Shown here one piece after another: positions 16,086 through 55,645 of a DNA stretch of 62,304 nucleotides; the stretch's first letter is position 1; the number at the start of each line of letters is the position of its first letter. Origin of the DNA: Arthrobacter sp. CAU 1506. Lineage in GTDB: Bacteria; Actinomycetota; Actinomycetes; Actinomycetales; Micrococcaceae. The notes below the pieces were generated by a model that saw only the letters and a program-made list of their open reading frames with translations, was not told the origin of the DNA and did not search any database. The position numbers were made by a program, and so were the translations under genes. The stretch is from contig NZ_SUKC01000020.1 in assembly GCF_005047635.1 (NCBI RefSeq), forward strand, positions 1-62,304, written 5' to 3'.

Positions 16086-16087
16086 GC

Positions 16088-29608: not shown

Positions 29609-29785
29609 TAGTGAGAGCAGCCCGAAGCATTACCAGAGTCTCATCCTGAAGCAGTGGTTCGGGTTGGACCTGCTGCTGATGATGTTCGGCCTGGCTGGAG
29701 CATGCGAAGAGAAACTTCCATGCTCTGGGCAAGCCGGACCGCTATGAGCTAGTGAGTACATTCCTACTGAACAGGCAGACGAATC

Positions 29786-30892: not shown

Positions 30893-30929
30893 CCCGAGGA
30901 GATACGGAAGTGATGAAGAGGAGAGCGGC

Positions 30930-33747: not shown

Positions 33748-33788
33748 GCCCCGGTCCGTATTCAGAACCAAAGATAGGAAAGTGCGTA

Positions 33789-34937: not shown

Positions 34938-34951
34938 TGGGAGCAACGCCG

Positions 34952-38145: not shown

Positions 38146-38259
38146 GCAGCCCTAGGCGTAGTTCCTTCTGAGGTTCTGAACAGCGTGGCGTGATGTAAGG
38201 GCGGGCACCTCCGGTATCGATATGGGTCACTACACTCATCTCGATGCCAGGAGGCCCTC

Positions 38260-38660
38260 GTGTCTTACTCATGCCAACGCCGACCTGATAAACAAGGCTC
38301 GGGATAACTCGCCCACCCTAGTCATCGAGCAGGGTTGGGCGCTGCGCCGGCCGCTGAACGTTTCCAGTTCTCGCCAGCCACCGCGAAGAAATGGGTGTGT
38401 CCGGTACCGACCCCGCGGGGAGGACGGCATAGCCGATGTGTCGTCCCGGCCGCGCCGGAGCCCGAACCGCACACCAATCCGACCCGAACGGCGGATCCCG
38501 GCGAAGCGATTCAACCGTCGTTGGGGACGCACCGCATCGCTGACACGGCCCACTGCATCTGGCCCGATCGACACTGAGAAAAGTCCTGGCCAGATACCGG
38601 ATACCCCAACTCGCCTGCCTGGACCAGGGGACCGGCCTGCCAATGAAAACCATGCCTTGA
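38260..38660 (+). pseudogene. IS481-family transposase relic, multiply frameshifted
   Basis: Fragments in different frames line up in order with IS481 transposase N-terminal halves. They are HANADLINKAR then LVIEQGWALRR, AAERFQFSPATAKKWV, DVSSRPRRSPNRTP, RFNRRWG, THRIAD, and VLARYRIPQLACLDQGTGLP. At least three frame changes separate them. The catalytic DDE half is missing, so the copy is dead and truncated. It separates the AruI-like operon from the next module. The remainder of 38146-39032 holds only repeat copy D. Confidence 0.85.
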
Positions 38661-38834
38661 CCTGCACAAACAGCACATTCGCTGGCAGTCGGGAGTTTTT
38701 GCATCTTCTGCAAATCCTCTTGCTCGCCCATAACCGTGAGTATGTCCGGACAGGTGTCTCGAGGGAGCAGCCTCTAACGGGACATTCACGTGCCTTGGTG
38801 CAACATGGATTCCATTGCGCTCGGCCATTCAAAG

Positions 38835-38889
38835 CCATGCATAAGTCCTCGCTCATCCATGTCGCGGTGGCGGACCGGCTTACGCGACA
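38835..38889 (+). repeat. Dispersed intergenic repeat, copy D
   Basis: CATGCATAAGTCCTCG is followed at 38859 by TGTCGCGGTGGCGGACCGG and GCGACA. The TGTCGC...GCGACA ends are perfectly complementary in this copy. It lies about 175 bases beyond the IS481 relic. Confidence 0.65.
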
Positions 38890-39032
38890 GAGTTTGAAAC
38901 ATGCACGAGCGCCAGTGCTTCCGGATGCCGGATGCCGAGTCCGGTCCGGGCTCGGCTGCCGGTGGTATCGGACGGAGCACCGGGGAGCACCGACAGGATA
39001 GTGCCGGTGTTTTTGGTGGACGCAGCCGCCTC

Positions 39033-39377: not shown

Positions 39378-40772
39378 TTAACGGGGCTGATGTGTCTGGT
39401 CCCAGACCGCTTGGATGTTGGTGAACTCGTGCACGCCCAGGTAGGAAAGTTCGCGCCCGAAACCGCTCTTCTTAACACCTCCAATAGGGATGCGCGGGTC
39501 TGAGACAGAGGGGCCGTTGATGAATACGCCGCCGGCATCGATCTGGCGGGCCATTTGCCTTGCCTTGGTGTTGTCTTTCGTCCAGATGGCTGCGCTGAGG
39601 CCGAATTCGGAGTTGTTTGCCTTAGCCAGTGCGTCCTCGGTGTCTTCGGCGAGGATGACTGTGGCAACGGGACCAAAGACCTCTTCCTGGAAGACTGCCA
39701 TGGACTCTGTGACGCCGGCTAAGACGGTGGGTGCGTAGAAGGAGCCGGGGCGGGGAAGCCTGTGACCGCCGGTGAGGAGTTCGGCGCCTTCCTCGACGGC
39801 GCGTCTGACCTGGTTGTCGACCTCGAGCAGGGCTTCCTCTTTAGCCATCGGCCCGATGAAAGTGTCCGGATCCCTAGGGTCGCCGATTTTGAAGCTTTCG
39901 ACGTGGCGGGTGAGTTTTGCGGTGAACTCGGCGTAGACGGCGCGTTCAACGATGATCCTCTTGGCAGAGATACAGACTTGACCGGCGTTCGTCATGCGGC
40001 CTGTGGCTGCAGCCTGGGCAGCGCTGTCCAGGTCGGCGTCTGCCAGAACGATGAACGGATCGGAGCCGCCGAGTTCGAGGATGACTTTCTTCAGCGCCCG
40101 GCCGGCCTCGGCGGCGACGCTCTGTCCGGCCAAGGTGCCCCCGGTTAGGGCGACTCCGGTGATGGCTGGATGGTGGATGATGCCGGGTATCTGGTCTCGG
40201 TCGCAGTTCAACACCGCGAAGGCGCCTTCCGGTAGGCCGGCCTCTTCCCAGAGTGCTTCGAGTTTCAGCGCGCAGCCGACGACGTTGGTGGCTGGTTTGA
40301 GGAGGTAACCGTTGCCGCCCAGCATGATCGGCACGGCACCCCGAAGTATCTGCCAGAGCGGGAAGTTCCACGGCATGATGGCCAGCACGGTTCCGGTCGG
40401 CAGGTACGAGATGTAGGCCTCGGGACCGATGGTCGTGGACTGGTCACCGAGCATGGCGGGTCCGTTTTCGGCGTACCAGTCGAGCATGTCGGCACATTTG
40501 TTCACCTCTGCCCGTGCCTGCGTCACCGGCTTTCCCATCTCGGCGGTGATAACTCCGGCAAGGTTGTCTGTGTCGCGGCGCAGGAACTGCGCAAGTCGAC
40601 GGAAAACTGCAACTCGCTTTGTCGGAGTCGTGTTCCTCCATACTGTGAAACCCTGTACCGCCGACTTCACTACATCCGAAATACCCGGTGCGTCCAAGTA
40701 CGGGTAAGTGGCGATGTTTTCCCCGGTGGCGGGGTTGGTCGACTTCGCAACCGCAATGTCGATGGTGCTCAA
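39378..40772 (-). CDS. Aldehyde dehydrogenase, succinate-semialdehyde dehydrogenase-like
   Basis: 464 residues from a TTG start (LSTIDIAVAKSTNP) placed 6 bases after GAGG; a longer ATG frame to 40823 reads through a hairpin region and is less likely. Motifs: MPWNFPLWQILRGAVP, catalytic glutamate in LELGGSDPF, and cysteine in NAGQVCISAKR. This GabD/Sad-like pattern acts on carboxy- or amino-aldehydes. It is downstream of the YtcJ amidohydrolase at 40882, separated by about 110 bases with small GC hairpins. Confidence 0.88.
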   Translation of the reverse strand: MSTIDIAVAKSTNPATGENIATYPYLDAPGISDVVKSAVQGFTVWRNTTPTKRVAVFRRLAQFLRRDTDNLAGVITAEMGKPVTQARAEVNKCADMLDWYAENGPAMLGDQSTTIGPEAYISYLPTGTVLAIMPWNFPLWQILRGAVPIMLGGNGYLLKPATNVVGCALKLEALWEEAGLPEGAFAVLNCDRDQIPGIIHHPAITGVALTGGTLAGQSVAAEAGRALKKVILELGGSDPFIVLADADLDSAAQAAATGRMTNAGQVCISAKRIIVERAVYAEFTAKLTRHVESFKIGDPRDPDTFIGPMAKEEALLEVDNQVRRAVEEGAELLTGGHRLPRPGSFYAPTVLAGVTESMAVFQEEVFGPVATVILAEDTEDALAKANNSEFGLSAAIWTKDNTKARQMARQIDAGGVFINGPSVSDPRIPIGGVKKSGFGRELSYLGVHEFTNIQAVWDQTHQPR

Positions 40773-40881
40773 TGTTTTCCTCTTTTTCGTGAGCAACGGA
40801 AGGCCTCCTGGCGCAGGAGCCACCGGTCGCTACTTCTTAGGGGGCTCGAGCCCCGCGGGGCCCGGTATCAGTGCGGGTGTT

Positions 40882-42579
40882 TCAATCCGTGCCTGCGGCC
40901 GCCTCAGCGACTGTATTGCCGCGGGTATAAACGTGCTCGCCTCCGAGGAAGACTTCTTCAACGCTGATGCTGGTCAGGTCTTCCGGGTCGGTGCTGAGCG
41001 GGTCCCGGTCAAGGGCGATGAGGTCGGCCAGTTTGCCCGGTTCCAACGAGCCTCGGGTGTTTTCCTCCCCGAGTGCTTGGGCACCGCCCAAGGTGTGCAT
41101 GCGCAGAGCCTCATGGATGGAAAGGGCCTGCTCGGAAGTGAGGGTGTGGCCATGGAACGTCCGGCGCATAACCGCGCTGGCGATGCTGAGGAAGGGGTTG
41201 GTTTGTCCGATTTCCGAACCGACCCATACATCGGAACTGCCCGAAATCGGCCAGCCGTCGTTGAGCATTGTTCGGAAGGGGAACTGCAGGTCGCGGGCAT
41301 AAGCGCCCACATAGGCGGGGACGAATTCTCCGAAGTTGTAGATGAACACCGGTTGCGGCACGGGCACGATCCTGGCGTCGGACCAGGCGCGGGAGAGCGT
41401 GGGGTAGTCGGGGACGAAGTTGCCGGCGTGTTCGATCCTGATGCGGGGCCCGTCCGGATGTTCATCAGCGATTCCGGCCAGCGCCTGACAGACCTCCATT
41501 TGGGCGCGGTCGCCGTTGGCGTGGATGGCCAACTGCAGTCCGGCGGCTTGGGTGCGGCGGGCGAGTTCGATGATCTGGTCCGTGGACAGGGCCAACTCCC
41601 CGCAGTTGTGGCCGTCCAGGGCGTAGGGCCGGGTCAGGGCCGCACGGGCTGCGGAGTAGCCGCCGTCGGAAAATGCTTTGACTCCCTGGATCTTCAGCAC
41701 CGATGCGTCTGAACGAAAGTTTGTCCAGGTGTGGTGTGTGCAGGCTTCGTCTAGGGAGACCGTGCCCGGGGTCCACAAGTAGACATGGATCCGCGCGGCT
41801 ATGCGACCTTCGGCCAAGGCATCGTCGTAGATTTCGAGGCCTTCGCGGGACTCGGAAATTTCTCCGATGGTGGTCACGCCATGGGCGGTGAACAGATCCC
41901 GGATGCCTGATTCGATTGCCTCGCGGGACTGTGCGGCTGAAAGGGCGGGGAAGGGCAGCAGTTTGTCCATTTCGGTGACGATGCCGTTGGGTCGGCCGTC
42001 AGCATAGCGCAGGACGGAGGGCTTTCCGGTGATGCTGTATTCGACGGCTTCATAGGAATCGTCGATGCCGCTCAGTTCCAGGGCTCGGCTGTTGAGAATG
42101 CTCAGGTGACCTCCGGCACGGACGGCAATTGCGATGTCAGTGCTGACGCTGTCGAGTTCGTCCCGGGTGGGAAAACGGCGCTCGGCCAGTTTCTGGTCGA
42201 AGAACAGGTTTGCCTGGGCCACCAGCCAGCCCTCGCGTGCCTGGGGGAGGCTGTCCCGCAGGGTCTGCAGCACCGCGTCGATATCCGGGCAGCCGGGTGC
42301 GCGGACATCGACCATCTGGTAGCTGGCCTTGGCTGCCACCTCCGCGTGGGCATGTGGGTCGACGAAGCCGGGCATGAGGGTGCGCTCGGGCATGTCCAGG
42401 ACAGTAGTGCGGTCCCCGATCCAGGTACCGGCTTCGGCGGCCGGGATGACCGCTTGGATAAGGCCGTCGCGGATGCATACTGCGGCCGGGCCGTCGGGTT
42501 CGCCGGTGCCGAGGGTGATGACACGGCCGGCCCGGATGACCGTGTCTGCCGGTCCGGTTGGCCCTGTTCCGCGGTTCAC
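40882..42579 (-). CDS. YtcJ-type amidohydrolase (second copy)
   Basis: 565 residues from a GTG start that overlaps the EthD-gene stop (GTGA). The metal site PHAHAEVA has H76 and H78 after LMPGFVD. Further ligand regions are AIHANGDRAQ and RIEHAGN, and the end is GSLEPGKLADLIALDRDP. It shares the family with the enzyme at 34952 but differs through most of the chain, so it is not a recent duplicate. It would hydrolyse an amide, imide or ring bond of the compound handled by the NCS1 permease and LLM monooxygenase. Confidence 0.87.
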   Translation of the reverse strand: MNRGTGPTGPADTVIRAGRVITLGTGEPDGPAAVCIRDGLIQAVIPAAEAGTWIGDRTTVLDMPERTLMPGFVDPHAHAEVAAKASYQMVDVRAPGCPDIDAVLQTLRDSLPQAREGWLVAQANLFFDQKLAERRFPTRDELDSVSTDIAIAVRAGGHLSILNSRALELSGIDDSYEAVEYSITGKPSVLRYADGRPNGIVTEMDKLLPFPALSAAQSREAIESGIRDLFTAHGVTTIGEISESREGLEIYDDALAEGRIAARIHVYLWTPGTVSLDEACTHHTWTNFRSDASVLKIQGVKAFSDGGYSAARAALTRPYALDGHNCGELALSTDQIIELARRTQAAGLQLAIHANGDRAQMEVCQALAGIADEHPDGPRIRIEHAGNFVPDYPTLSRAWSDARIVPVPQPVFIYNFGEFVPAYVGAYARDLQFPFRTMLNDGWPISGSSDVWVGSEIGQTNPFLSIASAVMRRTFHGHTLTSEQALSIHEALRMHTLGGAQALGEENTRGSLEPGKLADLIALDRDPLSTDPEDLTSISVEEVFLGGEHVYTRGNTVAEAAAGTD

Positions 42580-42878
42580 TGCTGTCCTGCCCGCGGGACG
42601 CTAAGCACGGTGGCTCCGGCGTGCGCGAAGTTGGCCAGGTCGGCAACCGATGCTTGTCCTGCCTCCGAGGCCATCGAAGCGTCGGCCTCCTCCTTTGACG
42701 CGTAGGTCAGGCGGGCGATGACGTAGTATCCGTTGGCTTCCTTTTCCGCCACCTTGCCCCAAGTGAAATCCTGCAGCAGGGGCAGTTGCCGGACCAGCGG
42801 AATGTGCGTGGTGGTGTAGTGCCGGTCAAAAATGTCCAGGTCCTCGGGCCGGTTGTAGAGGACAAACAGGTCATACAT
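42576..42878 (-). CDS. EthD-domain protein
   Basis: 100 residues: MYDLFVLYNRPEDLDIFDRH, then YTTTHIPLVRQLPLLQDFTWG, ending HAGATVLSVP. This is the ferredoxin-like EthD fold, found as small monooxygenase accessory or muconolactone-isomerase-like enzymes. Its start follows GGAGCGCATCCCT (weak) and its end overlaps the amidohydrolase start, so the two products are made together. Confidence 0.87.
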   Translation of the reverse strand: MYDLFVLYNRPEDLDIFDRHYTTTHIPLVRQLPLLQDFTWGKVAEKEANGYYVIARLTYASKEEADASMASEAGQASVADLANFAHAGATVLSVPRAGQQ

Positions 42879-42901: not shown

Positions 42902-44338
42902 TTAGTTCCGGATGTGGGCCGCATAGCCGCCCTTGCCCAGCGGGCGCAAGATGAAGCGTGCGCCCAGCCAGTAGATAAGTCCGGAGATGACGACGGCAGG
43001 TATGGTCGCGGTGGTGAACTGGAACGGTGCCCTGGATATGTAGGTGACGGGGTCCAGCAGGTAAAGATAGGTCGCGACTCCTGCGGCAAACGCGATGAAG
43101 GCTGCCGGGTTGACCCCGCCCCAGTAGTAGTAGCGTGAAGTCGCCGTTGTATCGAACAGCGACTTGACGTCGTAGTGCTGGCGGCGCAGGAAGAAATAGT
43201 CCGCGATCTGGATGCCGCAGATCGGTGCGAAGCCGATCCCCAGAAAGGCAAGGAACGTGCCGAAGCTGTTGAAGACGCTGTCGGCGAAGAACCCGGCCAG
43301 GATCAGGGCGGGGAGGGCACTGACCCAGGTGGAAAAAACCCATGAGCTGTTGCGGATGACCGGCAGTTGCCGGACGGCGACGGTCGCTGCGTAGACGCCG
43401 ACAACAGCGGTGCCGATGTTGGCAAGCACGATGAAGGCCAGCGCGAGGATGCCGAAGACCGGGCCGCCGATTTCGACCAGGAATTGGGTGGGGTCGCCTC
43501 CGGAGTCAGGGAGCAGCAGTCCGCCGTACAGTCCGGTGAGCGAGCCGACCCCGACGGCCAGGCCGAGGCCGAACACGACCGGCCAGAGAGACTTCCGTGC
43601 GCTGGGGGAGTTTCGGACCATCGCCCCCGTGTAGGCCCACCAGGACAGGTTGGAAGCGATCAGCACTTCCATTGCGCTGGCCCAGTTGACTTTGGGGTCT
43701 TCGGCGGGGGCGACCGCGGGTGCGGCCAGCAGGGTGTCCAGACCGGCGCTGTTGATCAGAAGGCCCATGATGACGAAGGCGAGGATAAGCACGGCGATGG
43801 CGATGAACTGGCTGAAGTTTCGAACAGCTGCTGATCCCTTGCGCAGCAGGAGCAGTACCACCAGAACGGCGATGGCGCCGGAGGCTCCGACCGACCAGCC
43901 CGGCAGATGCAGACCGAAAGCGCCGCCGATGGACACCATCGCCCGTCCGAGCAGCACGAAGAGGTATACGTTCCAACCAAGGGTGGCCAGGTAGATCAGT
44001 ACGACGGCCAGCAGGGAGCCTCGGGTGCCCAGTTGCGGCACCGACCCGGAAACGGCGTCGATGCCGTACTTGGCGCTGATTGGCAGGCAAGCCAGGACGA
44101 TGAACAGGATGCCGATCAGGGATCCTGCCAGTACCGCAAGGGTGCCCTGGCCGGCGGGCAGATAATAGGCGGCAAAGCCGCCGATGATGAAACACCAGGT
44201 GGCGATGGCCGTGGACACTGAGGTCGAGAAGACGGCGAAAGGCCCCCAGGTACGCTGGGACTTCAACTGGGGCCAACCGTTTTCGACGGCTTGGGAATCA
44301 ACGGCGGACGGCACGCTGGTGGTGTTCTTCAGGCTCAT
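42902..44338 (-). CDS. NCS1-family (nucleobase:cation symporter) permease
   Basis: 478 residues, about 12 membrane helices. NCS1 features: the early W-P hallmark region (GWPQLKSQRTWGPFAVFSTS), SISTAIATWCF-like first helix, and NLSWWAYTGAMVRN mid-protein. The family imports cytosine, uracil, allantoin, hydantoins and similar N-heterocycles with H+ or Na+. Its start overlaps the stop of the 58-residue gene (ATGA). The permease argues that the module's substrate is a small N-heterocycle. Confidence 0.9.
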   Translation of the reverse strand: MSLKNTTSVPSAVDSQAVENGWPQLKSQRTWGPFAVFSTSVSTAIATWCFIIGGFAAYYLPAGQGTLAVLAGSLIGILFIVLACLPISAKYGIDAVSGSVPQLGTRGSLLAVVLIYLATLGWNVYLFVLLGRAMVSIGGAFGLHLPGWSVGASGAIAVLVVLLLLRKGSAAVRNFSQFIAIAVLILAFVIMGLLINSAGLDTLLAAPAVAPAEDPKVNWASAMEVLIASNLSWWAYTGAMVRNSPSARKSLWPVVFGLGLAVGVGSLTGLYGGLLLPDSGGDPTQFLVEIGGPVFGILALAFIVLANIGTAVVGVYAATVAVRQLPVIRNSSWVFSTWVSALPALILAGFFADSVFNSFGTFLAFLGIGFAPICGIQIADYFFLRRQHYDVKSLFDTTATSRYYYWGGVNPAAFIAFAAGVATYLYLLDPVTYISRAPFQFTTATIPAVVISGLIYWLGARFILRPLGKGGYAAHIRN

Positions 44339-44511
44339 AGCAGGCCTCCGATGAGGATCAGGACAACGGGCATGGCGACGGTAGCCAGCAGCAGCAGGAC
44401 GTAGTCCCGGACCAGCAGCGGATCCCCTTGGTTTTCGGGCTGTTCGATGGCCTCGATGAGTTCGGCCAGCTCAAGGCTGCCTGCATCTGCCGGGCTTGGG
44501 GTGGCCGTCAC
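44335..44511 (-). CDS. 58-residue single-span membrane protein linked to the NCS1 permease
   Basis: Starts at a GTG that overlaps the LLM stop (GTGA) and ends overlapping the NCS1 start (ATGA). The N-terminal half is acidic (SLELAELIEAIEQPENQGDP) and the C-terminal half is one hydrophobic helix (DYVLLLLATVAMPVVLILIGGL). It is too small for most automatic callers. Tight coupling on both sides is strong evidence that it is real. A role as a small accessory subunit of the permease is inferred from position. Confidence 0.75.
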   Translation of the reverse strand: MTATPSPADAGSLELAELIEAIEQPENQGDPLLVRDYVLLLLATVAMPVVLILIGGLL

Positions 44512-45584
44512 CGGAGGACTTCCTGGCGGGCGCGGTCGACCTGCGGGATGACCTGGGAGCCAATGAGTTCCAGAGACTTCATGATGTTCTCGTGTCCCAT
44601 GCCGTCGATACGCAGCAGGACCTCGTCCACGCCCATGGCCTCGAGGCGCTCGATACGCTCGATGAAGTCCTGCGGGGTGCCGATCATGACCGAGGGCGTG
44701 TAGTCGCATAGCCAGTCCAGGTCGTCGCCGTGCTCGATCAGTTGATCCAGCGTGTCCAGGTATTCGTAGGCGGGGTTCTTCGACAGTGGGATGTAGAGGT
44801 CCAGGATGAACTTGAAGTACCGCAATGCGATGTCGCGGGCAATGGCGCGGGCTTCTTCGCGGGTTTCGGCACAGTATGCGGTGGCCACATAGAGTCCGCG
44901 GTAGTCGTTCGGCGCCTTGACCGATGAGTGGTCGGCCGTGTCAAAGGCGGTGCGGTAAGCGTCAAGGCATTCCTGGAGGTAGTCGAATCCGAAGTAGTTC
45001 TCGAACGAGATGGCCCCGATACCCCTCCGGCCGGCGTTGGTGTGGGTTTGGACGCTGGAAGCTGCGACGGACATGGGCGGGTGCGGGCCCGTGATGGGCT
45101 TGGGCACCACTTCAACCGGTGGGATCTGCCAAACGGGACCGTTGTGTTCGAGTTTGTCGTCGGTCATGGCCTTGATGAGCACGTCCATGGAGTCTTCCCA
45201 TTGCGCGCGGGTGTCCTTGGGGTCAACGCCGAAAGCGCCGAGAGTGGTCAGGTTGTTCGAACGCGCGGTACAGATCTCCGCCCGCCCGCCCGAGACGATG
45301 TCCAGGGTTGCCAGCCGTTCGGCTACGAGGATGGGATGGTTCCATTTGAGCATTACCGAAGCCATGGTCCGCAGCTTGATGTTGTTGGTCCGCATGGCGA
45401 TGGCGGAGTAGAGCACTTCCGGTGCCGCTACCGAAAAGTTTGGCGGGCTGAAGTGCTGTTCGGATGTGCCCCAGGTCGAAAAGCCGAGTCGGTCGGCCAA
45501 AGATACCTCCTCGATCAGCTGGTGATACCGCTCGGAGACGGTTGTGCCTGCCAGGTCGCCTTCCTGCAAAAGACCGATACGCAT
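44508..45584 (-). CDS. LLM-class flavin-dependent monooxygenase
   Basis: 358 residues of the bacterial-luciferase-like TIM-barrel family. It starts MRIGLLQEGDLAG after a perfect AGGAGG. Motifs: GFSTWGTSEQHFSPP, RTNNIKLRTMASV, ERLATLDIVSGGRAEIC, and a C-terminal PSVMIGTPQDFIERIE. Such enzymes use FMNH2 from a separate reductase to oxygenate a substrate, including ring opening as in RutA. A flavin reductase gene lies at 48360. It heads the operon LLM, small membrane protein, NCS1, EthD, amidohydrolase, aldehyde dehydrogenase. Confidence 0.9.
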   Translation of the reverse strand: MRIGLLQEGDLAGTTVSERYHQLIEEVSLADRLGFSTWGTSEQHFSPPNFSVAAPEVLYSAIAMRTNNIKLRTMASVMLKWNHPILVAERLATLDIVSGGRAEICTARSNNLTTLGAFGVDPKDTRAQWEDSMDVLIKAMTDDKLEHNGPVWQIPPVEVVPKPITGPHPPMSVAASSVQTHTNAGRRGIGAISFENYFGFDYLQECLDAYRTAFDTADHSSVKAPNDYRGLYVATAYCAETREEARAIARDIALRYFKFILDLYIPLSKNPAYEYLDTLDQLIEHGDDLDWLCDYTPSVMIGTPQDFIERIERLEAMGVDEVLLRIDGMGHENIMKSLELIGSQVIPQVDRARQEVLR

Positions 45585-45706
45585 AGTTCCTCCTATTTAG
45601 GAAATGGGTGGGTGGGACAAAACGGGGACAAAACGGGTGGGAAGCTGTGAAGACGCCGCGGCGGCCGGCGGCTTCAGTGACGGTGCTGTCTTGTAGTGTG
45701 ACTCTT

Positions 45707-46786
45707 ATGCAACTGCTCGCCGATCCTGTCAGCTCTGAGGGAACAGTGGACTCCGGCCGTGCTGCTTCCGGGCATTCTGAAGCGCCGCGGATCCTGCGCT
45801 CCGATCAGGAAGCCGGCGAACTGTCCCGCTTGGACCTGGACCTGATTGAGCAGCTTCAGCTCGACGGCCGGGTGCCTTATGCTGCGTTGGCCCGCCAAGT
45901 TGGGGTCACGGAGAAGACGGTCCGCCGACGGGTGTCGCATCTGCTGGAGGAAAACTACATCCAGATCTCGGCCGTGACGGACCCGGCACTGCTTGGTTTT
46001 AGGGCGATGGCCATTGTGCTGCTGAGCGTCGATGGTACCCGCAGCCCCGCGGAACTGGCCGGTCAACTCGCGCTCCTGCCGGAGGTTGACTACGTCACGG
46101 TGACGACCGGGCCCTTCGCGGTGCAGGCCGAAGTCATTTGCGTGGACGGCAAGGAACTGCATGATGTCGTCTCTGACAAAATCCGCAGGCTGTCGGGAGT
46201 ACGCGAAGTCGAGGTCCTTCCCTATCTGCGCCTGCATTACCAAGAAGCCAGGTTTTCCGGAGTCCGGGTCGACGACGGCCGCACCGGAGTCCGGCCCCGC
46301 GCTCTGGACGACACGGACCGGGTGATCATCGCCCGCTTGGCGGGGAACGGACGCGCGTCCTTCCGTCAGCTGTCGGCCGAACTGGACGTGTCCGAGACTA
46401 TGGTCCGCCAGCGTTACGCGCGGCTCGTGGATTCCGGTGCCGTGCGTGTGATGTGCATTGTCAATCCATTGCGGCTCGGCTTCCGGTCCACCTGTTGGGT
46501 TGGTCTGAAGCTGGATCAAGGCGCTAAAGCCGTGGAAGTAGCCGAATCGCTCACGCAACTGCCCGTGGTCTCGTACGTGGCGATCACTGCGGGCCGGTTC
46601 GACGTTCTCGCCGAAGTGGTTACCTCGGACGGGGAAGCACTGCTCAAGGTGTTGGACGACCAGATCCGGTCTCTGGACGGTGTGCGAAGCTTGGACACGT
46701 GGCTGTATCTGGACCTGCATTACAAGGCGCTTCAGCCGCGCCAAGGGCCGGGGCCAGCTCATGCCAGGGACATCCAGACAGTCTGA
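45707..46786 (+). CDS. Double-unit Lrp/AsnC-family regulator
   Basis: 359 residues: two complete Lrp/AsnC modules in one chain. The first winged helix is at about 42-85 (LDLDLIEQLQLDGRVPYAAL, then TEKTVRRRVSHLLEE) with its RAM-like domain. The second starts near 203 (LDDTDRVIIARLAGNGRASF, then SETMVRQRYARL). Usual Lrp proteins are ~150 residues. The start is uncertain because no Shine-Dalgarno precedes ATG 45707, and the frame is open to 45608. It is divergent from the LLM operon and its end overlaps the convergent aldehyde dehydrogenase by 28 bases. It probably controls both. Confidence 0.87.
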   Translation: MQLLADPVSSEGTVDSGRAASGHSEAPRILRSDQEAGELSRLDLDLIEQLQLDGRVPYAALARQVGVTEKTVRRRVSHLLEENYIQISAVTDPALLGFRAMAIVLLSVDGTRSPAELAGQLALLPEVDYVTVTTGPFAVQAEVICVDGKELHDVVSDKIRRLSGVREVEVLPYLRLHYQEARFSGVRVDDGRTGVRPRALDDTDRVIIARLAGNGRASFRQLSAELDVSETMVRQRYARLVDSGAVRVMCIVNPLRLGFRSTCWVGLKLDQGAKAVEVAESLTQLPVVSYVAITAGRFDVLAEVVTSDGEALLKVLDDQIRSLDGVRSLDTWLYLDLHYKALQPRQGPGPAHARDIQTV

Positions 46787-48243
46787 GTTTCCAGATACTT
46801 TTCCAGCCCCTCCGGGCCACAGTCCTTGCCGAACCCTGAGCTCTTGAATCCACCGAATGGCGCCGCGGCGTTGTAATCGGCGTAAGTGTTGACCCAGACC
46901 GTTCCTGCCTGCAGCCGCTGCGCCACAGTGTGAGCCTTGCGGACATCATTGGTCCAGACTCCGGCGGTCAGCCCGTACTTACCGGAGTTGGCACGCGGCA
47001 TCAGCTCCTCGACGGAGTCGAAAGGCTGGATCACCAGAACCGGACCGAAGATCTCCTCTGCCACTACTGCGTCGCTGTCGGCGGGGCCGACAACGGCAGT
47101 GGGCTCCAGAAAATAGCCGCCGTCCTTGGGCCGGGAACCGCCGAAGGCGACCTTAGCTCCCGTGCCGGATACCGTATTCAAGTAGCCTTCGACCTTCTCC
47201 CGATGCACGGCCGAGGACAGCGGGCCCATAGTAGTGGTCCTGTCCAGTCCGTGGCCGAGAACCAGTGCATCAGCGTGTTCCTTCACCGCGGCGAGCACAT
47301 CATCCACAGCGCTCCGCTCGACCATGAGACGGGATCCACTGAAGCAAACCTGCCCGGAATAGAAGTACGCCGTGGTGGCCGCATACGTCGCCGCCTTGGC
47401 GATGTCGGCGTCCGCGAAGATGATGTGCGGGTTCTTTCCACCGAGTTCCAGTGAGATGTGCTTTAAGGACCGGCCGGCCTCAGCGCCCAAGTGGCGGCCC
47501 GTTGCCTCCGAACCGGTGAATGAGATCTTGGAAACCTGAGGGTGGGAGACCAGCGCCTGCCCGGTCGCCGCACCCGTGCCAGTGACGACATTGACGGTTC
47601 CCGCCGGCAGCCCGGCCTCGACGGCGAGTTGGGCCAGGCGCAGCGAAGACAGGGAAGTGAGTTCGGAAGGTTTGAGCACGACGGTATTGCCGGCGGCCAA
47701 GGCCGGGGCGAGCTTGATTGCAGCCTGACAAAGGGGAAAATTCCAAGGGGTAATTGCCGCTACCACACCCAGCGGGATTTTACGTGTATAGACATGTGAA
47801 TTTGGGGTGGAGACGGGCACTGTAGCGCCTTGTATTTTGGTAGGCCAGCCGGCGTAGTAGCGGAACTGTTCCACCGCTAGCGGGACATCCACGCTCTCTA
47901 CATAGGTAACTGGTTTGCCCCCTTCAAGCGCGTCGTACTGGGCTAGTTCGAGGGCGTTTTCTTCGATCAGGTCTGCTAAACGGTGCAGCAGTTCTTCGCG
48001 GCGCGCCGGCAGCATGCTGCCCCATTCTCCTTCGAAGGCTGTTGCAGCCGATTCAACAGCCCGGTCAACAGTTTTCGCATCAGTCTCGGCGATCTTGGTG
48101 ATAACCCGGCCCGTGGCCGGGTCCACGGTATCGATCGTTGATCCATCGGTGGAAATTTCCGTTCCGCCGATGAAAGCACCGTGTTCGGCGGAGGCGAACG
48201 AAGCCGCCTGGGGCAGCATCAGGGATTCAGCTACTGCAGTCAT
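46759..48243 (-). CDS. NAD-dependent aldehyde dehydrogenase (BetB/PuuC-like)
   Basis: 494 residues: GAFIGGTEISTDGSTIDTVD N-terminus, TPWNFPLCQAAIKLAPAL, catalytic E in LELGGKNPH and C in SGQVCFSGSRL, and the end FGGFKSSGFGKDCGPEGLEK typical of betaine/aminoaldehyde-type enzymes. It starts after AGGAGT. This is the third aldehyde dehydrogenase of the window. It shares its strand with the LLM operon and the flavin reductase, and is likely part of the same pathway. Confidence 0.92.
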   Translation of the reverse strand: MTAVAESLMLPQAASFASAEHGAFIGGTEISTDGSTIDTVDPATGRVITKIAETDAKTVDRAVESAATAFEGEWGSMLPARREELLHRLADLIEENALELAQYDALEGGKPVTYVESVDVPLAVEQFRYYAGWPTKIQGATVPVSTPNSHVYTRKIPLGVVAAITPWNFPLCQAAIKLAPALAAGNTVVLKPSELTSLSSLRLAQLAVEAGLPAGTVNVVTGTGAATGQALVSHPQVSKISFTGSEATGRHLGAEAGRSLKHISLELGGKNPHIIFADADIAKAATYAATTAYFYSGQVCFSGSRLMVERSAVDDVLAAVKEHADALVLGHGLDRTTTMGPLSSAVHREKVEGYLNTVSGTGAKVAFGGSRPKDGGYFLEPTAVVGPADSDAVVAEEIFGPVLVIQPFDSVEELMPRANSGKYGLTAGVWTNDVRKAHTVAQRLQAGTVWVNTYADYNAAAPFGGFKSSGFGKDCGPEGLEKYLETQTVWMSLA

Positions 48244-48359
48244 GGGTGTGTACTCCTATCGAAAAGAATCTCCGGGATTTGAGGCGAGGCAAACAGAGGG
48301 CGCAGACGGCAGGAACGCCTCAGGGAAGGTATCGGCACCGGCAGGGCCGCTTGGGGTTT

Positions 48360-48872
48360 TCAGACAGCGGGTGAAGCGAGCATCTGGCGACGGTGGTACA
48401 CGATCGGACGTCGGTCCTCTGCGTGCTCTATGCCGCAGATGCGGCCGACGACAATGGTGTGGTCCCCGCCCGGCAAAAGGTCCGAGACCACGCAGTCCAA
48501 AACTATGGCGGCACCGGCAAGCAGGGGCTGCCCTGATTCGCTGAACGTCCAATCGGTGTCATCGAACTTTTGCGGTCCCTTCTTTGCGAAAGCCAAAGCC
48601 GTCTCCTGTTGCCCCTCAGCGGTGATGTGGATCAGGAAGCTTCGACCCAGGCTGAGGGCTGAAAGGGTGTCCGATGCTGCGTCCAGACAGACAAGGACCA
48701 GCGGCGGCGTCATGGAAAGCGAACTCACTGCGGACACCGTGGCCCCGTGGGGAGTCCCGTCCCAAGCGACAGTGGTCACGATCGACACGGCCGCGGGCAA
48801 GTCCGCCATAGCTGCGCGGAACGCGTCCTGATCCACCAGATTCTCGTGAGGTACGTCACTGTTGATAGTCAT
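48360..48872 (-). CDS. Flavin reductase (FMN-binding split-barrel)
   Basis: 170 residues: FRAAMADLPAAVSIVTTVAW, GATVSAVSSLSMTPPLVLVC (flavin-binding strand), and a GGDHTIVVGRI end. This is the HpaC/RutF-type short-chain flavin reductase that gives FMNH2 or FADH2 to a monooxygenase. The obvious partner is the LLM enzyme at 44508. No Shine-Dalgarno precedes the ATG, and an AT-rich palindrome overlaps the start, so a leaderless mRNA is possible. Confidence 0.9.
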   Translation of the reverse strand: MTINSDVPHENLVDQDAFRAAMADLPAAVSIVTTVAWDGTPHGATVSAVSSLSMTPPLVLVCLDAASDTLSALSLGRSFLIHITAEGQQETALAFAKKGPQKFDDTDWTFSESGQPLLAGAAIVLDCVVSDLLPGGDHTIVVGRICGIEHAEDRRPIVYHRRQMLASPAV

Positions 48873-48874
48873 GA

Positions 48875-48890
48875 GAGGTACAGTATCCTC
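48875..48890. promoter_or_regulatory. Imperfect palindrome at the flavin-reductase start
   Basis: GAGGTAC-AG-TATCCTC ends two bases from the ATG at 48872. GTACAGTATCC recalls the sites of FadR-type GntR regulators, but no GntR gene is nearby. On the minus strand TACTGT could be a -10 box, so a bound protein would block the promoter. Confidence 0.35.
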
Positions 48891-49177
48891 ACTCTTGGGG
48901 GGGGTTCAAGACCGGAATTCAAATATTTCAGAATCTTTGAGACCGTAATTCGCACAGTGAGGATGGATGACTGCCCGTCGAAGGGTCTACCGGTCAGGAT
49001 TCAGTGTGGCTTCGTTTTTCCGAATCGACGTCATCGAGACGGATGCCGGCGAGCAGCGTGCTGTCCGGTTCGTCGCTGAGCATCCCGCCGTGCAGTTGAT
49101 AATCATCCACCGGGCCTTGCGAGACTTCTCTGCCCCGGGGTCCGGATTCAGTACGGGGGGTGTCCCTATTCTGTTCG
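48891..49177. other. Gene-free stretch between flavin reductase and IS110 relic
   Basis: Starts with a G-run (GGGGGGG near 48897) and an AT-rich patch (CAAATATTTCAG). A frame from 48967 on the plus strand is open but matches nothing known, and codon use is not convincing. It may hold the flavin-reductase promoter. Confidence 0.4.
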
Positions 49178-49678
49178 TCAAGGGGTCAGGCTGCCTTGAG
49201 CTGGGGTGTTTCGTGGAGGGTCATGTCGCGGAGCTGAGAAGAGGACATCGCAGCGGCGTCTGGCTAGAGCGATCAGGGCTTGGTTGTGGTGTTTCCCCTC
49301 GGCGCCTTTCCGGTCGTAGTAGGCGCGTGAAGCCGGGTCCTTTAGCGCCGCGGCAGCGGAGAGGAACAAGTCGCGTTTGAGGACTTTGTTTCCCTTCTTC
49401 GACGGCTGGTTGCCGCGGATCGAGGTGCCCGATCTCCAGGTCACCGGCGCGAGTCCAGAGTAGGAGGCCAAATGTTCTGCCGAGGCGAATTCCTTGCCGA
49501 CGATATCGGTGATGATCCGTGCTTCCGTCCTGACGCCGACCGCCGGCATGGATGTCAGGACGAGGTGAAGAGGGTGGGCCTTCACGAATTCTTCCACCCG
49601 GGCTAACATCTGGGTGCGCGAAGTACGCAGCTGCACCAGTTGAACCATCAACTGTTGGCTGGATGGTTCACACGGCAC
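49178..49678 (-). pseudogene. IS110-family transposase fragment (C-terminal, frameshifted end)
   Basis: Contains the Transposase_20 domain: HPLHLVLTSMPAVGVRTEAR, ASYSGLAPVTWRSGTSIRGN, KKGNKVLKRDLFLSAAAALK and YYDRKGAEGKHHNQALIALA. The N-terminal DEDD RuvC-like half is missing; upstream bases do not encode it. Close to the end the frame slips after CDVLFS: two bases appear lost, and the other frame gives the expected LRDMTLHETPQLKAA. The copy is therefore doubly broken. It lies between the monooxygenase module and the purine cluster. Confidence 0.85.
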
Positions 49679-50953: not shown

Positions 50954-51862
50954 ATGAGCACAGCCGCCAACGCCAGAGCGTCCACCCGCGTGGTCCTGGG
51001 GCCGAACCAGTACGGCAAGGCGGAAGTCCGGCTGGTCAAAGTCACCCGGGACATCGACCGGCACCACATCCAGGACCTCAACATCACGTCCCAGCTGCAC
51101 GGCGACTTCGAGCAGACCCACGTCGCCGGCGACAACTCGCACGTGGTCGCCACGGACACCCAAAAGAACACCGTCTACGCCCTGGCTCGGAGCGGGGTAG
51201 GAGCCCCCGAGGAATTCCTGCTCCGGCTGGGCCGCTATTTCACCGGCCGGTTCGACTGGGTCACCGGAGGACGTTGGGAAGCAGAGCAGTACTTGTGGGA
51301 CCGGATTAACAACCATGACCACGCCTTCGTCCGCAATAAGAGCGAGGTGCGCACCGCCGTCGTCGGCCTCTCCCAGACCGGGACCACGGTGCTTGCCGGT
51401 CTCCAGGGCCTGACGGTGCTCAAGTCCACCGGCAGCGAGTTCCGCGGTTTCCCGCGGGACAGATACACCACGCTGCAGGAAACCACCGACCGGATCCTGG
51501 CCACCGACGTCACCGCGCGCTGGCGATACCGGACCACGGAGGCGGACTTCGACGCGGTCTACGCCAGTGTCCGGTCGCTGCTGCTGAAGGGCTTCGCCGA
51601 GACTCATTCGCTGGCCCTGCAGCAGACCATGTTCCAGATGGGGCGGCTGGTGTTGGAGGCGCATCCGGAGATCGAGGAGATCAGGATGTCGCTGCCCAAC
51701 AAGCACAACTTCGCGGTGGATCTGCAGCCGTTCGGCATGGAGAACCCGAACGAGGTGTTCTTCGCCGCGGACCGGCCCTACGGGCTGATCGAAGCAGCGA
51801 TCCAGCGCGAAGGGAGCCCGGCTAACCACGAGATATGGGCCAACCTGCCCGGATTCTGCTAG
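50954..51862 (+). CDS. Urate oxidase (uricase)
   Basis: Cofactor-free oxidation of urate to 5-hydroxyisourate. 302 residues; the two tunnelling-fold halves are seen, with the catalytic threonine region VVATDTQKNTVYALA near 70 and the second-half signature LPNKHNFAVDLQPFG near 255. The N-terminus LGPNQYGKAEVRLVKV is typical. It lies directly after uraH, giving the three urate-to-allantoin genes in a row. Confidence 0.95.
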   Translation: MSTAANARASTRVVLGPNQYGKAEVRLVKVTRDIDRHHIQDLNITSQLHGDFEQTHVAGDNSHVVATDTQKNTVYALARSGVGAPEEFLLRLGRYFTGRFDWVTGGRWEAEQYLWDRINNHDHAFVRNKSEVRTAVVGLSQTGTTVLAGLQGLTVLKSTGSEFRGFPRDRYTTLQETTDRILATDVTARWRYRTTEADFDAVYASVRSLLLKGFAETHSLALQQTMFQMGRLVLEAHPEIEEIRMSLPNKHNFAVDLQPFGMENPNEVFFAADRPYGLIEAAIQREGSPANHEIWANLPGFC

Positions 51863-51909
51863 CCGACGGCGGCCGGCAGCCCAGGACCGATCCCTCAGGG
51901 AGGAGCACG

Positions 51910-53508
51910 ATGACCATCGAGATAACGGACCAGCCGCCCGTGGCCGGCGCCGAGAAGATCCTCACGCCGGAGGCCTTGGACTTCATCGAGGAGCTGCACC
52001 GCAGGTTCGCCAGCACCCGGAACAAGCTGCTGGCCGACCGCGCCGAGCACCGCCGCGCCGCATCCCAGACGGGCAAGCTGGATTTCCTGCCGGAGACCGA
52101 ACACATCCGCACCGGCGACTGGAGCGTGGCGCCGGCACCGGCGGCCTTGCAGGACCGCAGGGTGGAGATGACCGGGCCGGCGACGCCGGCCAAGATGGCG
52201 ATCAACGCGCTGAACTCGGGGGCCAAGGTCTGGCTGGCGGATCTGGAAGATGCCTGCGCGCCGACCTGGCCCAACGTGATTGATGCCCAGCTCAACCTTT
52301 ACGGCGACGCCCGGGGCGAGCTGTCGCACACCTCCGCCGAGGGCAAGGAGTACAGGCTGCGCACCGACGCGCCGCAGGCCACCGTGGTGGTCCGACCGCG
52401 CGGCTGGCACCTGCCGGAAAAGCACCTCATGCTCGACGGCGGCCCCGCCATCGGCGCGCTGGTGGACTTCGGTCTGCACTTCTTCCACAACGCGGCCCAC
52501 CTGGCTTCCACCGGCCAGGGCCCGTTCTACTACCTGCCCAAGATGGAGAGCCATCTGGAGGCGCGGCTCTGGAACGAGGTGTTCAACGTGGCGCAGGACG
52601 CCCTGGGCATCCCGCGCGGGACGGTGCGGGCCACGGTGCTGATCGAGACCATCCCTGCGGCGTTCCAAATGGAGGAAATCCTCTTTGAGCTGCGCGAGCA
52701 TGCCTCTGGCCTGAACGCCGGCCGCTGGGACTACCTGTTCAGCATCATCAAGTACTTCCGCGACGCGGGCGCGGACTTTGTGCTGCCGGACCGCGCGAGT
52801 GTGTCGATGACGGCGCCGTTCATGCGCGCCTACACCGAGCTGCTGGTCAAGACCTGCCACCGGCGGGGCGCCTTCGCGATGGGCGGGATGGCCGCGTTCA
52901 TCCCCAACCGGCGCGAACCGGAGATCACGGCCCGGGCGGTGGAGAAGGTCCGCGCGGACAAGACCCGCGAGGCCCGCGACGGCTTCGACGGCTCCTGGGT
53001 GGCCCATCCGGACCTGGTGCCGATTTGCCAGGAAGTGTTCGACGACGTGCTGGGGGACAGGCCGAACCAGCTGGACCGGCTGCGCGACGACGTGCAGGTC
53101 ACCCCGAAGCAGCTGCTGGACATTCCGTCGGCCGGCGGCGAGGTCACCGAGGCCGGCCTGCGGCTGAACCTGTACGTGGCGGTGGCCTACACCGCCGTTT
53201 GGCTTTCCGGCAACGGCGCGGTGGCCATCCACAACCTGATGGAGGACGCCGCCACCGCCGAGATCTCGCGCTCGCAGATCTGGCAGCAGCTGCACAACAA
53301 GGTGCTGCTGGCCGATACCGGAAACACGGTCACCGCCGAACTGGTGGACCAGATCCTGGCCGAGGAAACCGAACGCCTGCGCGGGGAAGTGGATCCGGTG
53401 GAGTTTGAACGCCACTACCTGCCGGCCAGTAGGCTGATCGGCGAACTGGCCACCGGTGCGCAGTTCGTGGACTTCCTGACCCTGCCGGCCTATGAGCTGG
53501 TGACCTGA
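51910..53508 (+). CDS. aceB: Malate synthase A
   Basis: Condenses glyoxylate and acetyl-CoA to malate. 532 residues from ATG 51910, 7 bases after GGAGGAG; the longer frame to 51835 overlaps uricase. Motifs: VWLADLEDACAPTWPN, the catalytic region VVRPRGWHLPEKH, ATVLIETIPAAFQMEEI, and the general-base region NLMEDAATAEISRSQIWQQ. Its place inside the purine operon indicates a job in using glyoxylate released from ureidoglycolate rather than the general glyoxylate shunt. Confidence 0.95.
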   Translation: MTIEITDQPPVAGAEKILTPEALDFIEELHRRFASTRNKLLADRAEHRRAASQTGKLDFLPETEHIRTGDWSVAPAPAALQDRRVEMTGPATPAKMAINALNSGAKVWLADLEDACAPTWPNVIDAQLNLYGDARGELSHTSAEGKEYRLRTDAPQATVVVRPRGWHLPEKHLMLDGGPAIGALVDFGLHFFHNAAHLASTGQGPFYYLPKMESHLEARLWNEVFNVAQDALGIPRGTVRATVLIETIPAAFQMEEILFELREHASGLNAGRWDYLFSIIKYFRDAGADFVLPDRASVSMTAPFMRAYTELLVKTCHRRGAFAMGGMAAFIPNRREPEITARAVEKVRADKTREARDGFDGSWVAHPDLVPICQEVFDDVLGDRPNQLDRLRDDVQVTPKQLLDIPSAGGEVTEAGLRLNLYVAVAYTAVWLSGNGAVAIHNLMEDAATAEISRSQIWQQLHNKVLLADTGNTVTAELVDQILAEETERLRGEVDPVEFERHYLPASRLIGELATGAQFVDFLTLPAYELVT

Positions 53509-54794
53509 TGGCCCGCCGCCTGGCCTTGGAAGCCGATGCCCTGGCCTGGATCGACGCTGAGCTCGCTGCGACCGATAACCTTCTCGCGACGCATTATCCG
53601 GGCGAAGCCGTGGGCCGCCAGCCCGTTCACACCGTGTATATTCCGGCTGGCGCATACGTCCCGGAGCTGCCGGCCCGCTGGAGTGCCGAGGCGCTCGCGG
53701 TGGCGAAGGCCCACGGTGGGCTGGAGCAGCTGGCGGTCTTTCTGGACCTGGCCGACCCGGCACAGCTGGCCGAGCTCGTCCGGCGCAAGCTGGAGACGGA
53801 ACCGATCGAAGACCTGCGGGTGGATTTCGAGGACGGCTACCGCAAGCACGACGACGACGAAGAAGACGCCGCGGCGGAACGCGCCGGCGAACTGGTGGCT
53901 GAGACGGTTGCAGCGGGGACGGCGCCCCCGTTCATAGGCGTCCGGTTCAAGAGTCTGGAGGCGGCTTCCCGCGCCCGCGGACTGCGCACGCTGGATCTGT
54001 TCCTCGGGTCGTTGACCGAACACGCCGGCGGACGAGGCCTACCCGACGGACTGGTGCTCACGCTGCCCAAGGTCAGCACCGTGGACCAGGTCCGGGCCAT
54101 GGTTTACGTGTGCGAGAAGCTGGAGCGGGCGCACGGCCTCGCATCCGGGCGGCTGCGCTTCGAAGTCCAGGTGGAGATGCCGCAGCTAATCCTCGCCGCC
54201 AACGGAACCGCGCCGGTGGCCCGGCTGATCCACGAGGGTTCTGGGCGGGTGGCCGGCCTGCACTACGGAACCTACGACTACAGCGCCTCACTGGGCATCG
54301 CTGCCGGCTACCAGTCGATGGAGCACCCGGCGGCCGACCATGCCAAGAACGTAATGCAGGTTGCCGCGGCGGGCACCGGCGTGCGCCTGTCCGACGGCTC
54401 GGCGAACATCCTGCCGGTTGGCGACCCCGGAAACGTCAGGGCGGCCTGGGCGCTCCACGCCAGGCTGGTCCGCCGGCACCTGGAACGCGGCATCTACCAA
54501 GGCTGGGACCTGCACCCGGCGCAGCTGCCCACCCGATTCCTGGCCACCTATGCCTTCTACCGGGACGGATTGGAGGCCGCTGCCACCCGGCTGAGGAACT
54601 ATGTGCACGGGACGGCGGGCACCGTCCTTGATGAACCCGCCACCGCTCGCGCCCTCGCCCGTTTCATCGACCGCGCGTTGACCTGTGGCGCGGTGGAGGA
54701 AGCCGAGTTCATCCAACTGGCGGGCGTTCCGGTGGTGCAGCTCCGCTCGCTGGCCTATCCGCCCAGATCCGCCGGGGCGGAGGGAACACCATGA
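53508..54794 (+). CDS. DUF6986 / HpcH-HpaI aldolase-citrate lyase-like protein
   Basis: 428 residues. The lyase-type TIM-barrel features are RVDFEDGYRKHDDDEEDAAA (acidic metal region), PFIGVRFKSLE, GLVLTLPKVSTVDQV, the EVQVEMPQLI strand and LHYGTYDYSASLGIAAGYQ. The fold is that of CitE/malyl-CoA lyase and malate synthase G relatives, but no function is established for the family. It shares one base with the aceB stop and overlaps the next gene by four, so it is tightly tied to glyoxylate use. The substrate is unknown. Confidence 0.82.
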   Translation: MARRLALEADALAWIDAELAATDNLLATHYPGEAVGRQPVHTVYIPAGAYVPELPARWSAEALAVAKAHGGLEQLAVFLDLADPAQLAELVRRKLETEPIEDLRVDFEDGYRKHDDDEEDAAAERAGELVAETVAAGTAPPFIGVRFKSLEAASRARGLRTLDLFLGSLTEHAGGRGLPDGLVLTLPKVSTVDQVRAMVYVCEKLERAHGLASGRLRFEVQVEMPQLILAANGTAPVARLIHEGSGRVAGLHYGTYDYSASLGIAAGYQSMEHPAADHAKNVMQVAAAGTGVRLSDGSANILPVGDPGNVRAAWALHARLVRRHLERGIYQGWDLHPAQLPTRFLATYAFYRDGLEAAATRLRNYVHGTAGTVLDEPATARALARFIDRALTCGAVEEAEFIQLAGVPVVQLRSLAYPPRSAGAEGTP

Positions 54795-55606: not shown

Positions 55607-55645
55607 GCCGGAGTGCGGACGGAATTCGAGACAGGAGCAGGCCAG

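Follow-up and report, generated by a model that had tools for sequence, protein, structure and literature searches.

The subject of this analysis is a cluster of catabolic genes built around an LLM class flavin monooxygenase in Arthrobacter sp. CAU 1506, located on a stretch of 62,304 nucleotides (contig NZ_SUKC01000020.1 of the assembly GCF_005047635.1; hereafter, the window). Seven gene families of this cluster, namely the LLM, a flavin reductase, an Lrp/AsnC regulator, a YtcJ-type amidohydrolase, an aldehyde dehydrogenase (ALDH1), an EthD-family protein, and an NCS1 permease, are found jointly in 17 of 22 homologous loci. With moderate confidence, the module can be regarded as a horizontally spread catabolic set dedicated to one polar azine-type N-heterocycle and operating via oxygenolytic ring opening. 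The families were assigned by Pfam and NCBIfam profile searches, which confirmed the LLM, NCS1, EthD, YtcJ, flavin reductase, and aldehyde dehydrogenases named in the initial annotation, made from the letters of the sequence. The genes of the locus are as follows (window coordinates; aa, amino acids; ORF, open reading frame):

48360–48872, minus strand: flavin reductase (Pfam PF01613, Flavin_Reduct, 133.5 bits; the HsaB, HpaC, and RutF models all below cut-off)
46759–48243, minus strand: ALDH1 (PF00171, 554.8 bits; top NCBIfam models StyD, BADH, and aminobutyraldehyde dehydrogenase, below cut-off)
45608–46786 (ORF), plus strand: Lrp/AsnC regulator (HTH_AsnC-type and AsnC_trans_reg, each twice)
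44508–45584, minus strand: LLM class flavin monooxygenase (PF00296, 144.8 bits)
44335–44511, minus strand: 58-aa protein with a single transmembrane segment (GTG start; no family model matched its ORF)
42902–44338, minus strand: NCS1 permease (PF02133, Transp_cyt_pur, 94.9 bits, cut-off 23.5)
42576–42878, minus strand: EthD-family protein (TIGR02118, 74.6 bits, cut-off 30.5; PF07110, 38.1 bits, cut-off 22)
40882–42579, minus strand: YtcJ-type amidohydrolase (PF07969, Amidohydro_3, 248.7 bits, cut-off 29.7)
39378–40823 (or from TTG 40772), minus strand: second aldehyde dehydrogenase, ALDH2 (PRK13968, succinate-semialdehyde dehydrogenase, 567.8 bits, below the cut-off of 855)

The genes from LLM to YtcJ are tightly packed, with successive junctions of −4, −4, +23, and −4 nt: the 58-aa ORF starts with a GTG within the LLM stop (GTGA) and ends within the NCS1 start (ATGA), the 23-nt gap separates NCS1 from EthD, and the EthD/YtcJ junction is a start/stop overlap of the same kind. 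The GTGA/ATGA coupling described in the initial annotation holds for the three overlaps and the short gap but not for ALDH2, which is separated from YtcJ by 109 nt if its start is, as seems most likely, TTG 40772. The module was initially confined to 44335–48872, a span omitting NCS1, EthD, and YtcJ, although the accompanying reasoning counted the genes from 45584 down to 39378. The flavin reductase is indeed present near the LLM, but ALDH1 and the LLM are spaced by 1174 nt occupied by the opposite-strand, two-domain Lrp/AsnC gene, which had been missed. This gene is divergent from the LLM, its 3′ end overlaps the end of ALDH1, and its start is probably ATG 45707, judging by the 359 aa thus obtained, as in A. 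crystallopoietes. A minus-strand ORF at 45674–46762, antisense to the Lrp gene and lacking any family match, was rejected as a gene. Overall, the module proved to be a real, conserved catabolic set whose boundaries and composition needed correcting.

To assess the conservation of the module, 84,980 genomes, each of one species, were scanned with two peptide patterns, which yielded 20 loci in addition to the two plasmid copies described below; since only two patterns were used, this figure is a lower bound. The resulting 22-locus set omits the window itself and the locus L035, a duplicate of the A. crystallopoietes copy. Taken family by family, flavin reductase was matched in 22 of the 22 loci, Lrp in 21, YtcJ in 20, ALDH1 in 19, EthD in 18, and NCS1 in 17, with one additional weak partial match of the latter. 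Homologues of the flavin reductase are weak (29–36% identity) in L015, L018, L020, and L021, and that of ALDH1 is 44% identical in L016 and 51–87% elsewhere. Incomplete sets include L026, a 7.5-kb contig without ALDH1 and NCS1; L022, without EthD, NCS1, and Lrp; and L030, without EthD and with a partial NCS1 match, though a gene of the NCS1 family was confirmed there by Pfam. In L033 and L034, the module is represented by LLM, flavin reductase, and Lrp only, with YtcJ, ALDH1, EthD, and NCS1 unmatched. In the former, the neighbours are alpha/beta hydrolases, a molybdopterin dehydrogenase-type gene, and a shorter Amidohydro_3 protein, which in the alignment lacks three of the six metal-site residues.

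As controls, 11 loci around LLMs from outside the module clade were searched with the same query proteins (E 1e-5). Flavin reductase was matched in nine of them, ALDH1 in four, and YtcJ in one, the plasmid p2MP, whereas NCS1, EthD, and Lrp were matched in none of the 11, several of the control stretches being 13 kb long and hence shorter than the module loci (mostly 21 kb). One of the controls (L012) carries an annotated cytosine permease, which remained unmatched by the module NCS1 at this threshold. The co-occurrence of the seven families exceeds chance, in agreement with the expectation that the set would recur in other genomes, and the finding is now more strongly supported than the sequence alone could show.

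The expected fixed order LLM–small membrane protein–NCS1–EthD–YtcJ was retained in a part of the actinobacterial loci only; elsewhere, the same genes are rearranged, and the small membrane protein was not found. Of the two aldehyde dehydrogenases originally placed in the set, ALDH1 belongs to it, but ALDH2 was rejected as a core member, being the best match in one of the 22 homologous loci, at 37% identity. Clustering of the ORFs revealed no recognised universal eighth gene beyond the module. RibBA-type ORFs cluster in four of 23 loci, the Pfam check being made for the one on the plasmid pYKAM101, where RibBA and a CobW-type protein stand between Lrp and YtcJ (L011, 14586–16693). Possibly, this RibBA (riboflavin precursor synthesis) and the CobW-type protein serve flavin and metal supply.

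The distribution of the module is patchy. An orthologue of the LLM was found in two of the 59 related genomes searched (the own genome and one of the same genus). Of 296 genomes from the class, the own one alone has it; a single further sequence, with 36% identity, was matched at E 1e-60. At the same time, the LLM recurs in Nocardioides, Pseudonocardia, Leucobacter, Hyphomicrobium, Hansschlegelia, Ancylobacter, Pseudomonas, and others. A plasmid search revealed the same gene set on A. crystallopoietes pLDW-10, with an LLM 92% identical, and a diverged set on the IncP plasmid pYKAM101 (LLM 64%, ALDH1 55%, flavin reductase 50%, YtcJ 45%, Lrp 39%, NCS1 38%, EthD 32%). The accessory content of pYKAM101 is reported as “Two ISs”, and the plasmid is said to transfer to Pseudomonas (PMC9499019). 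In the window, a piece of an IS110-family transposase lies upstream of the module (49178–49678, 60 bits), and the downstream gene at 38222–39001 shows a weak IS481-type match below cut-off. Together, the patchy distribution and the transposase traces suggest that the module has spread by horizontal transfer.

The position of the LLM was inferred from a tree of 36 sequences (three own-genome paralogues, L003–L005, and one LLM of L036 being set aside), in which a single branch (97/99) sets the 24 module LLMs apart from the rest. Next to them stand the LLM of Arthrobacter sp. 68b p2MP, a second LLM of the own genome (contig C10), and one from Aminobacter, joined with a support of 88/82 and with long branches flagged; the module clade, whose window member is 39% identical to the p2MP LLM, lies beside this group, not inside it. 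An LLM encoded next to an annotated TpdB branches farther out. The AlphaFold model of the LLM (pLDDT 87) has an ordinary luciferase-type fold, and the fold search returned general luciferase-fold matches, none of them diagnostic. With the p2MP LLM as the nearest relative, a TpdA-type LLM as a more distant one, and an importer of the NCS1/Mhp1 class, the N-heterocyclic substrate envisaged in the initial annotation stays the best reading.

The claim that no known pathway has such a composition overlooked the pyr cluster of p2MP (NZ_KJ410765), which we take to be the published pyridine pathway, its LLM presumably being PyrA. In the pathway that Casaite et al. reportedly described in 2020, the LLM PyrA is accompanied by the aldehyde dehydrogenase PyrB, the amidohydrolase PyrC, the succinate-semialdehyde dehydrogenase (SSADH) PyrD, and the reductase PyrE. 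The p2MP cluster contains an LLM, a flavin reductase, an amidohydrolase, and SSADH-type aldehyde dehydrogenases. Besides the LLM, it resembles the module in the flavin reductase (43% identity) and in the YtcJ-type amidohydrolase (26%), where the candidate metal residues coincide; ALDH1 is 36% identical to the nearest p2MP aldehyde dehydrogenase and ALDH2, which is not conserved with the module, is 43% identical to a p2MP SSADH. It differs in the gene order, in the LLM clade, and in the lack of any match to NCS1, EthD, Lrp, or the small protein in the 25-kb stretch compared. The p2MP LLM occurs there twice in opposite directions (L010, 2677–3828 and 12001–13152) under the same protein accession.

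Further systems are comparable in part. The trigonelline tgn pathway likewise comprises an LLM with its reductase, an aldehyde dehydrogenase, and an N-formyl hydrolase. On pR1CP1 of Rhodococcus opacus, the annotated TpdB, a subunit of tetramethylpyrazine oxygenase, is encoded beside an LLM. The tetramethylpyrazine tpd operon of Rhodococcus, dealt with in a paper on its promoter (PMC6099782), is similar to the module in azine breakdown (proposed for the latter), in the LLM (39% identity), and in the flavin reductase and annotated cytosine permease nearby, but it features an amidase in place of YtcJ, a LuxR-type regulator, and the TpdB subunit, without a match to EthD, Lrp, or ALDH1. The nearest known system is the pyridine-type ring opening by an LLM, not Rut. 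In the open-licence literature, no description was found combining at least four of LLM, EthD, cytosine permease, amidohydrolase, and flavin reductase.

The YtcJ protein offers another line of comparison. Each of its residues H76, H78, K301, H353, H384, and D450, presumably metal ligands according to the pattern of the amidohydrolase superfamily, recurs in at least 20 of the 21 module rows as well as in the p2MP amidohydrolase and in the second YtcJ of the window. YtcJ homologues (39–46% identity) are encoded beside MHPCO-like FAD monooxygenases on Rhodococcus plasmids, where an annotated ABC transporter and an SSADH are found alongside, and on pNGR234b of Sinorhizobium fredii NGR234, where the cluster includes Lrp at 39%. 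MHPCO opens a pyridine ring to an N-acyl enamine, which an amide hydrolase then cleaves; such a ring opening needs no separate flavin reductase, and the oxygenase family is other than LLM. One characterised member of PF07969 is, according to a figure legend, NfdA, an N-substituted formamide deformylase (PMC13081902). In view of the pairing with MHPCO-like enzymes and of NfdA, hydrolysis of an N-acyl or N-formyl enamine is an economical reading of YtcJ, and it is proposed by analogy as its putative activity.

A similar pairing exists within the window itself: the MHPCO-like protein encoded at 33789–34937, whose best PDB match is the solved MHPCO (1.4e-50), adjoins the second YtcJ (34868–36559). 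Along with an XRE-cupin regulator, an ABC importer (29786–33747), and an enzyme dependent on TPP (36556–38145), they make up a set at 28709–38145, probably another cluster for heterocycle ring opening.

The sole PDB matches of the NCS1 permease at E 0.01 are to the hydantoin permease Mhp1 (29 bits), and the protein scores 76.6 bits with the TIGR00800 ncs1 model, below the cut-off of 353.1. The permease is preceded by the 58-aa protein, which displays, by eye, one hydrophobic segment and a conserved core QG-x(2)-L-x(3)-D/E-Y. Homologues of this protein are encoded directly before NCS1 in the window and in eight of 10 actinobacterial loci; no match was found in the 12 other loci, where a diverged homologue could have escaped. 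Among 197 genomes of the class (up to 30 candidates scored per genome), it was detected in the own genome only. Since its gene is restricted to the module context despite the five NCS1 genes of the own genome, the protein seems to be tied to this particular permease, and one may guess that it is a small subunit of the latter.

The model of the EthD protein (pLDDT 92) is a dimeric alpha/beta barrel closest to BH0200 of the EthD family and, next, to olivetolic acid cyclase, with 4-methylmuconolactone methylisomerase among the further matches. Residues Y8, Y21, H25, and D80 are invariant across 20 rows; these Tyr, His, and Asp would fit tautomerisation or lactone chemistry, although the fold does not decide. 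An isomerase or tautomerase acting on the ring-opening product is a possible role for this protein.

A promoter scan of the locus returned one site against 2.2 expected by chance, and six terminator-like sites were found against 7.7 expected. In the window (48872–48900), a GATACT box recognised by eye, and present also in A. crystallopoietes, precedes the ATG of the flavin reductase by about 9 nt, so the transcript may be nearly leaderless; this box is not among the sites listed by the scan. An operator common to the LLM and the regulator was considered and rejected: the palindromes upstream of the LLM vary between loci, and nothing conserved was recognised by eye.

Drawing on the observed families, operon anatomy, co-occurrence, phylogeny, and conserved candidate metal site, the following scheme may be put forward, in which every reaction, the reaction order, and the substrate class are conjectural. 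Import of the compound would fall to the NCS1 permease, joined in Actinomycetota by the 58-aa protein. The flavin reductase, proposed to be of the NAD(P)H:flavin type, would supply reduced flavin to the LLM, which would insert O2-derived oxygen and open the ring to yield an N-formyl (or N-acyl) enamine aldehyde. EthD may then aid the tautomerisation or isomerisation of the ring-opened product or of its cyclic lactol, ALDH1 would convert the aldehyde to the acid, and YtcJ, as a metal-dependent hydrolase, would release the formate (or other acid) bound to the nitrogen. The enamine left behind would decay, giving ammonia along with a semialdehyde or a keto acid, the latter product to be oxidised by housekeeping enzymes or, in this organism, by ALDH2. 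The Lrp/AsnC protein may sense the substrate or the product and govern the divergent promoters.

This scheme is favoured by the co-occurrence of the seven families, by the place of the module LLMs in the tree, and by the fact that, among the controls, YtcJ was matched on p2MP alone; the pairing of YtcJ homologues with MHPCO-like enzymes and the placement of NfdA in PF07969 likewise speak for it. Several observations count against it: the identities to the p2MP proteins are just 26–43%, and the equation of the p2MP LLM with PyrA is presumptive; pyridine would not obviously require an NCS1 importer. The gene content of L033 and L034 indicates that the tail of the module is not obligatory. LLM relatives of 33–35% identity adjoin creatininase-family, enoyl-CoA hydratase, and AMP-binding proteins, a context not pointing to ring opening, and the fold matches of EthD also include hydroxynitrile lyase, oxygenases, and stress proteins. 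PF07969 encompasses many other activities. Moreover, KpiC of Arthrobacter sp. IN13 (PF01979), an amidohydrolase-family protein, is described as a ring-opening dioxygenase of 3,4-dihydroxypyridine (PMC7356986), so YtcJ need not be a hydrolase.

Among the alternatives, it is conceivable, though unlikely, that the module is a diverged pyridine pathway, in which the LLM opens pyridine itself and ALDH1, YtcJ, and ALDH2 lead to succinate. In the window, each of the five functions ascribed to the pyr pathway does have a counterpart, the SSADH-like ALDH2 among them, and the LLM clade adjoins the p2MP LLM; but ALDH2 falls outside the conserved set, the identity of ALDH1 to the nearest p2MP aldehyde dehydrogenase is low, the permease, EthD, and Lrp find no match in the p2MP stretch searched at the control threshold, and the p2MP LLM has a closer relative in the C10 LLM of the own genome than in the module LLMs, both by bit score and in the tree with its long branches. 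An equally improbable alternative is a non-heterocyclic substrate, on which the LLM would act as a Baeyer–Villiger, C–S, or C–N oxygenase generating the aldehyde that ALDH1 oxidises, and the amide cleaved by YtcJ would be an unrelated one. The LLM fold is common to 3,6-diketocamphane monooxygenase, SfnG, and luciferase, all present among the fold matches, the families alone do not fix the substrate, and some LLM relatives reside in CoA-ester-type clusters. Yet several of the nearest LLM relatives have as neighbours amidases, an amidohydrolase, or TpdB, the subunit of a pyrazine oxygenase. The SfnG, SsuD, and NtaA/DmoA models also score far below cut-off, a weak argument because the same is true of every other LLM model listed (25 of 27 matches). 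Least probable of all is a Rut-like oxygenation of the amide in a lactam ring (pyrimidine, hydantoin, or barbiturate), the resemblance seen in the initial annotation: the LLM with its flavin reductase, the importer of the nucleobase/hydantoin class, and the uricase gene elsewhere in the window fit it in general logic, but the reductase reaches 90.3 bits with the RutF model (TIGR03615), whose cut-off is 254.75, the 25 NCBIfam matches of the LLM listed (out of 27) include no RutA model, RutA comes at rank 39 of the fold matches, no RutB-, RutC-, or RutD-type genes, i.e., neither the Rut hydrolases nor RutC, were recognised in the module by the Pfam and NCBIfam matches shown, and the Rut logic has no use for ALDH1.

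A different kind of comparison is provided by pLDW-10 of A. crystallopoietes, where a second cluster (L009, 21486–31328) starts 1.5 kb past the first one. It comprises, in this order, a BCCT transporter, a PucR regulator, an LLM, a carboxymuconolactone-decarboxylase-family protein, a hypothetical 191-aa protein, a flavin reductase, an aldehyde dehydrogenase, EthD, and YtcJ. Between the two clusters, the aldehyde dehydrogenases are 86% identical, the EthD proteins 88%, the YtcJ proteins 86% (520 aa compared), and the flavin reductases 70%; the LLMs share 25% identity, and the importers come from different families. With a near-identical tail behind unrelated LLMs, the simplest explanation is that two substrates are attacked by different LLMs and converge, as these identities suggest, on an intermediate that is identical or closely alike. 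For the second cluster, an N-methyl heterocycle of the betaine type would be a fitting cargo of the BCCT importer.

A broader and more tentative extension of the oxygenolytic ring-opening scheme follows, one which may well be wrong. The aldehyde dehydrogenase, EthD, and YtcJ, along with the flavin reductase, could represent a mobile tail recruited behind unrelated ring-opening flavin monooxygenases and unrelated importers, so that several heterocycles would feed one intermediate. The exchangeable heads would include the two LLM lineages, YtcJ alone being found also behind the MHPCO-like FAD enzyme; the importers would be NCS1 with its dedicated 58-aa membrane subunit, BCCT, and ABC. The tail would process ring-opened N-acyl enamine aldehydes.

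Other clusters with related LLMs came to light in the course of the analysis. In the own genome, contig C10 (L040, 564–8602 and 11520–14928) harbors the p2MP-like LLM with a flavin reductase, an amidase, alpha and beta subunits of a Rieske oxygenase with a reductase, an acyl-CoA-dehydrogenase-like protein, and an ABC importer, and this set is a candidate for a further heterocycle cluster. On plasmids of Pseudonocardia (L014, 8001–15628) and A. sulfonylureivorans (L045, 2690–13041), an LLM and a flavin reductase are clustered with an enoyl-CoA hydratase, an adenylate-forming enzyme, an amidase, an aldehyde dehydrogenase, and a Rid protein. A separate cluster type, in which the LLM and flavin reductase are accompanied by the creatininase-family, enoyl-CoA hydratase, and AMP-binding proteins mentioned above, occurs in Bradyrhizobium, Azospirillum, and Streptomyces (L042, L043, and L046). 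The window is rich in genes for the catabolism of nitrogen compounds; those at 50954–57007 and 13815–18286 include the genes of uricase, malate synthase, DUF6986, an amidohydrolase, and a hydantoinase/oxoprolinase A–B pair.

If the extension with exchangeable heads is true, the intermediate can be predicted from the tail and the substrate from the oxygenase and the importer; with A. crystallopoietes DSM 20117 as a named carrier available in culture, the substrate can be sought directly. The 58-aa protein, if the guess about it is right, could be taken as a candidate small subunit of an NCS1 transporter. Should the proposed ring-opening route hold, the module would provide a sequence signature for an undescribed pathway of N-heterocycle breakdown, carried by Actinomycetota of the soil, by Hyphomicrobium and other Pseudomonadota related to it, and by an IncP plasmid capable of transfer.

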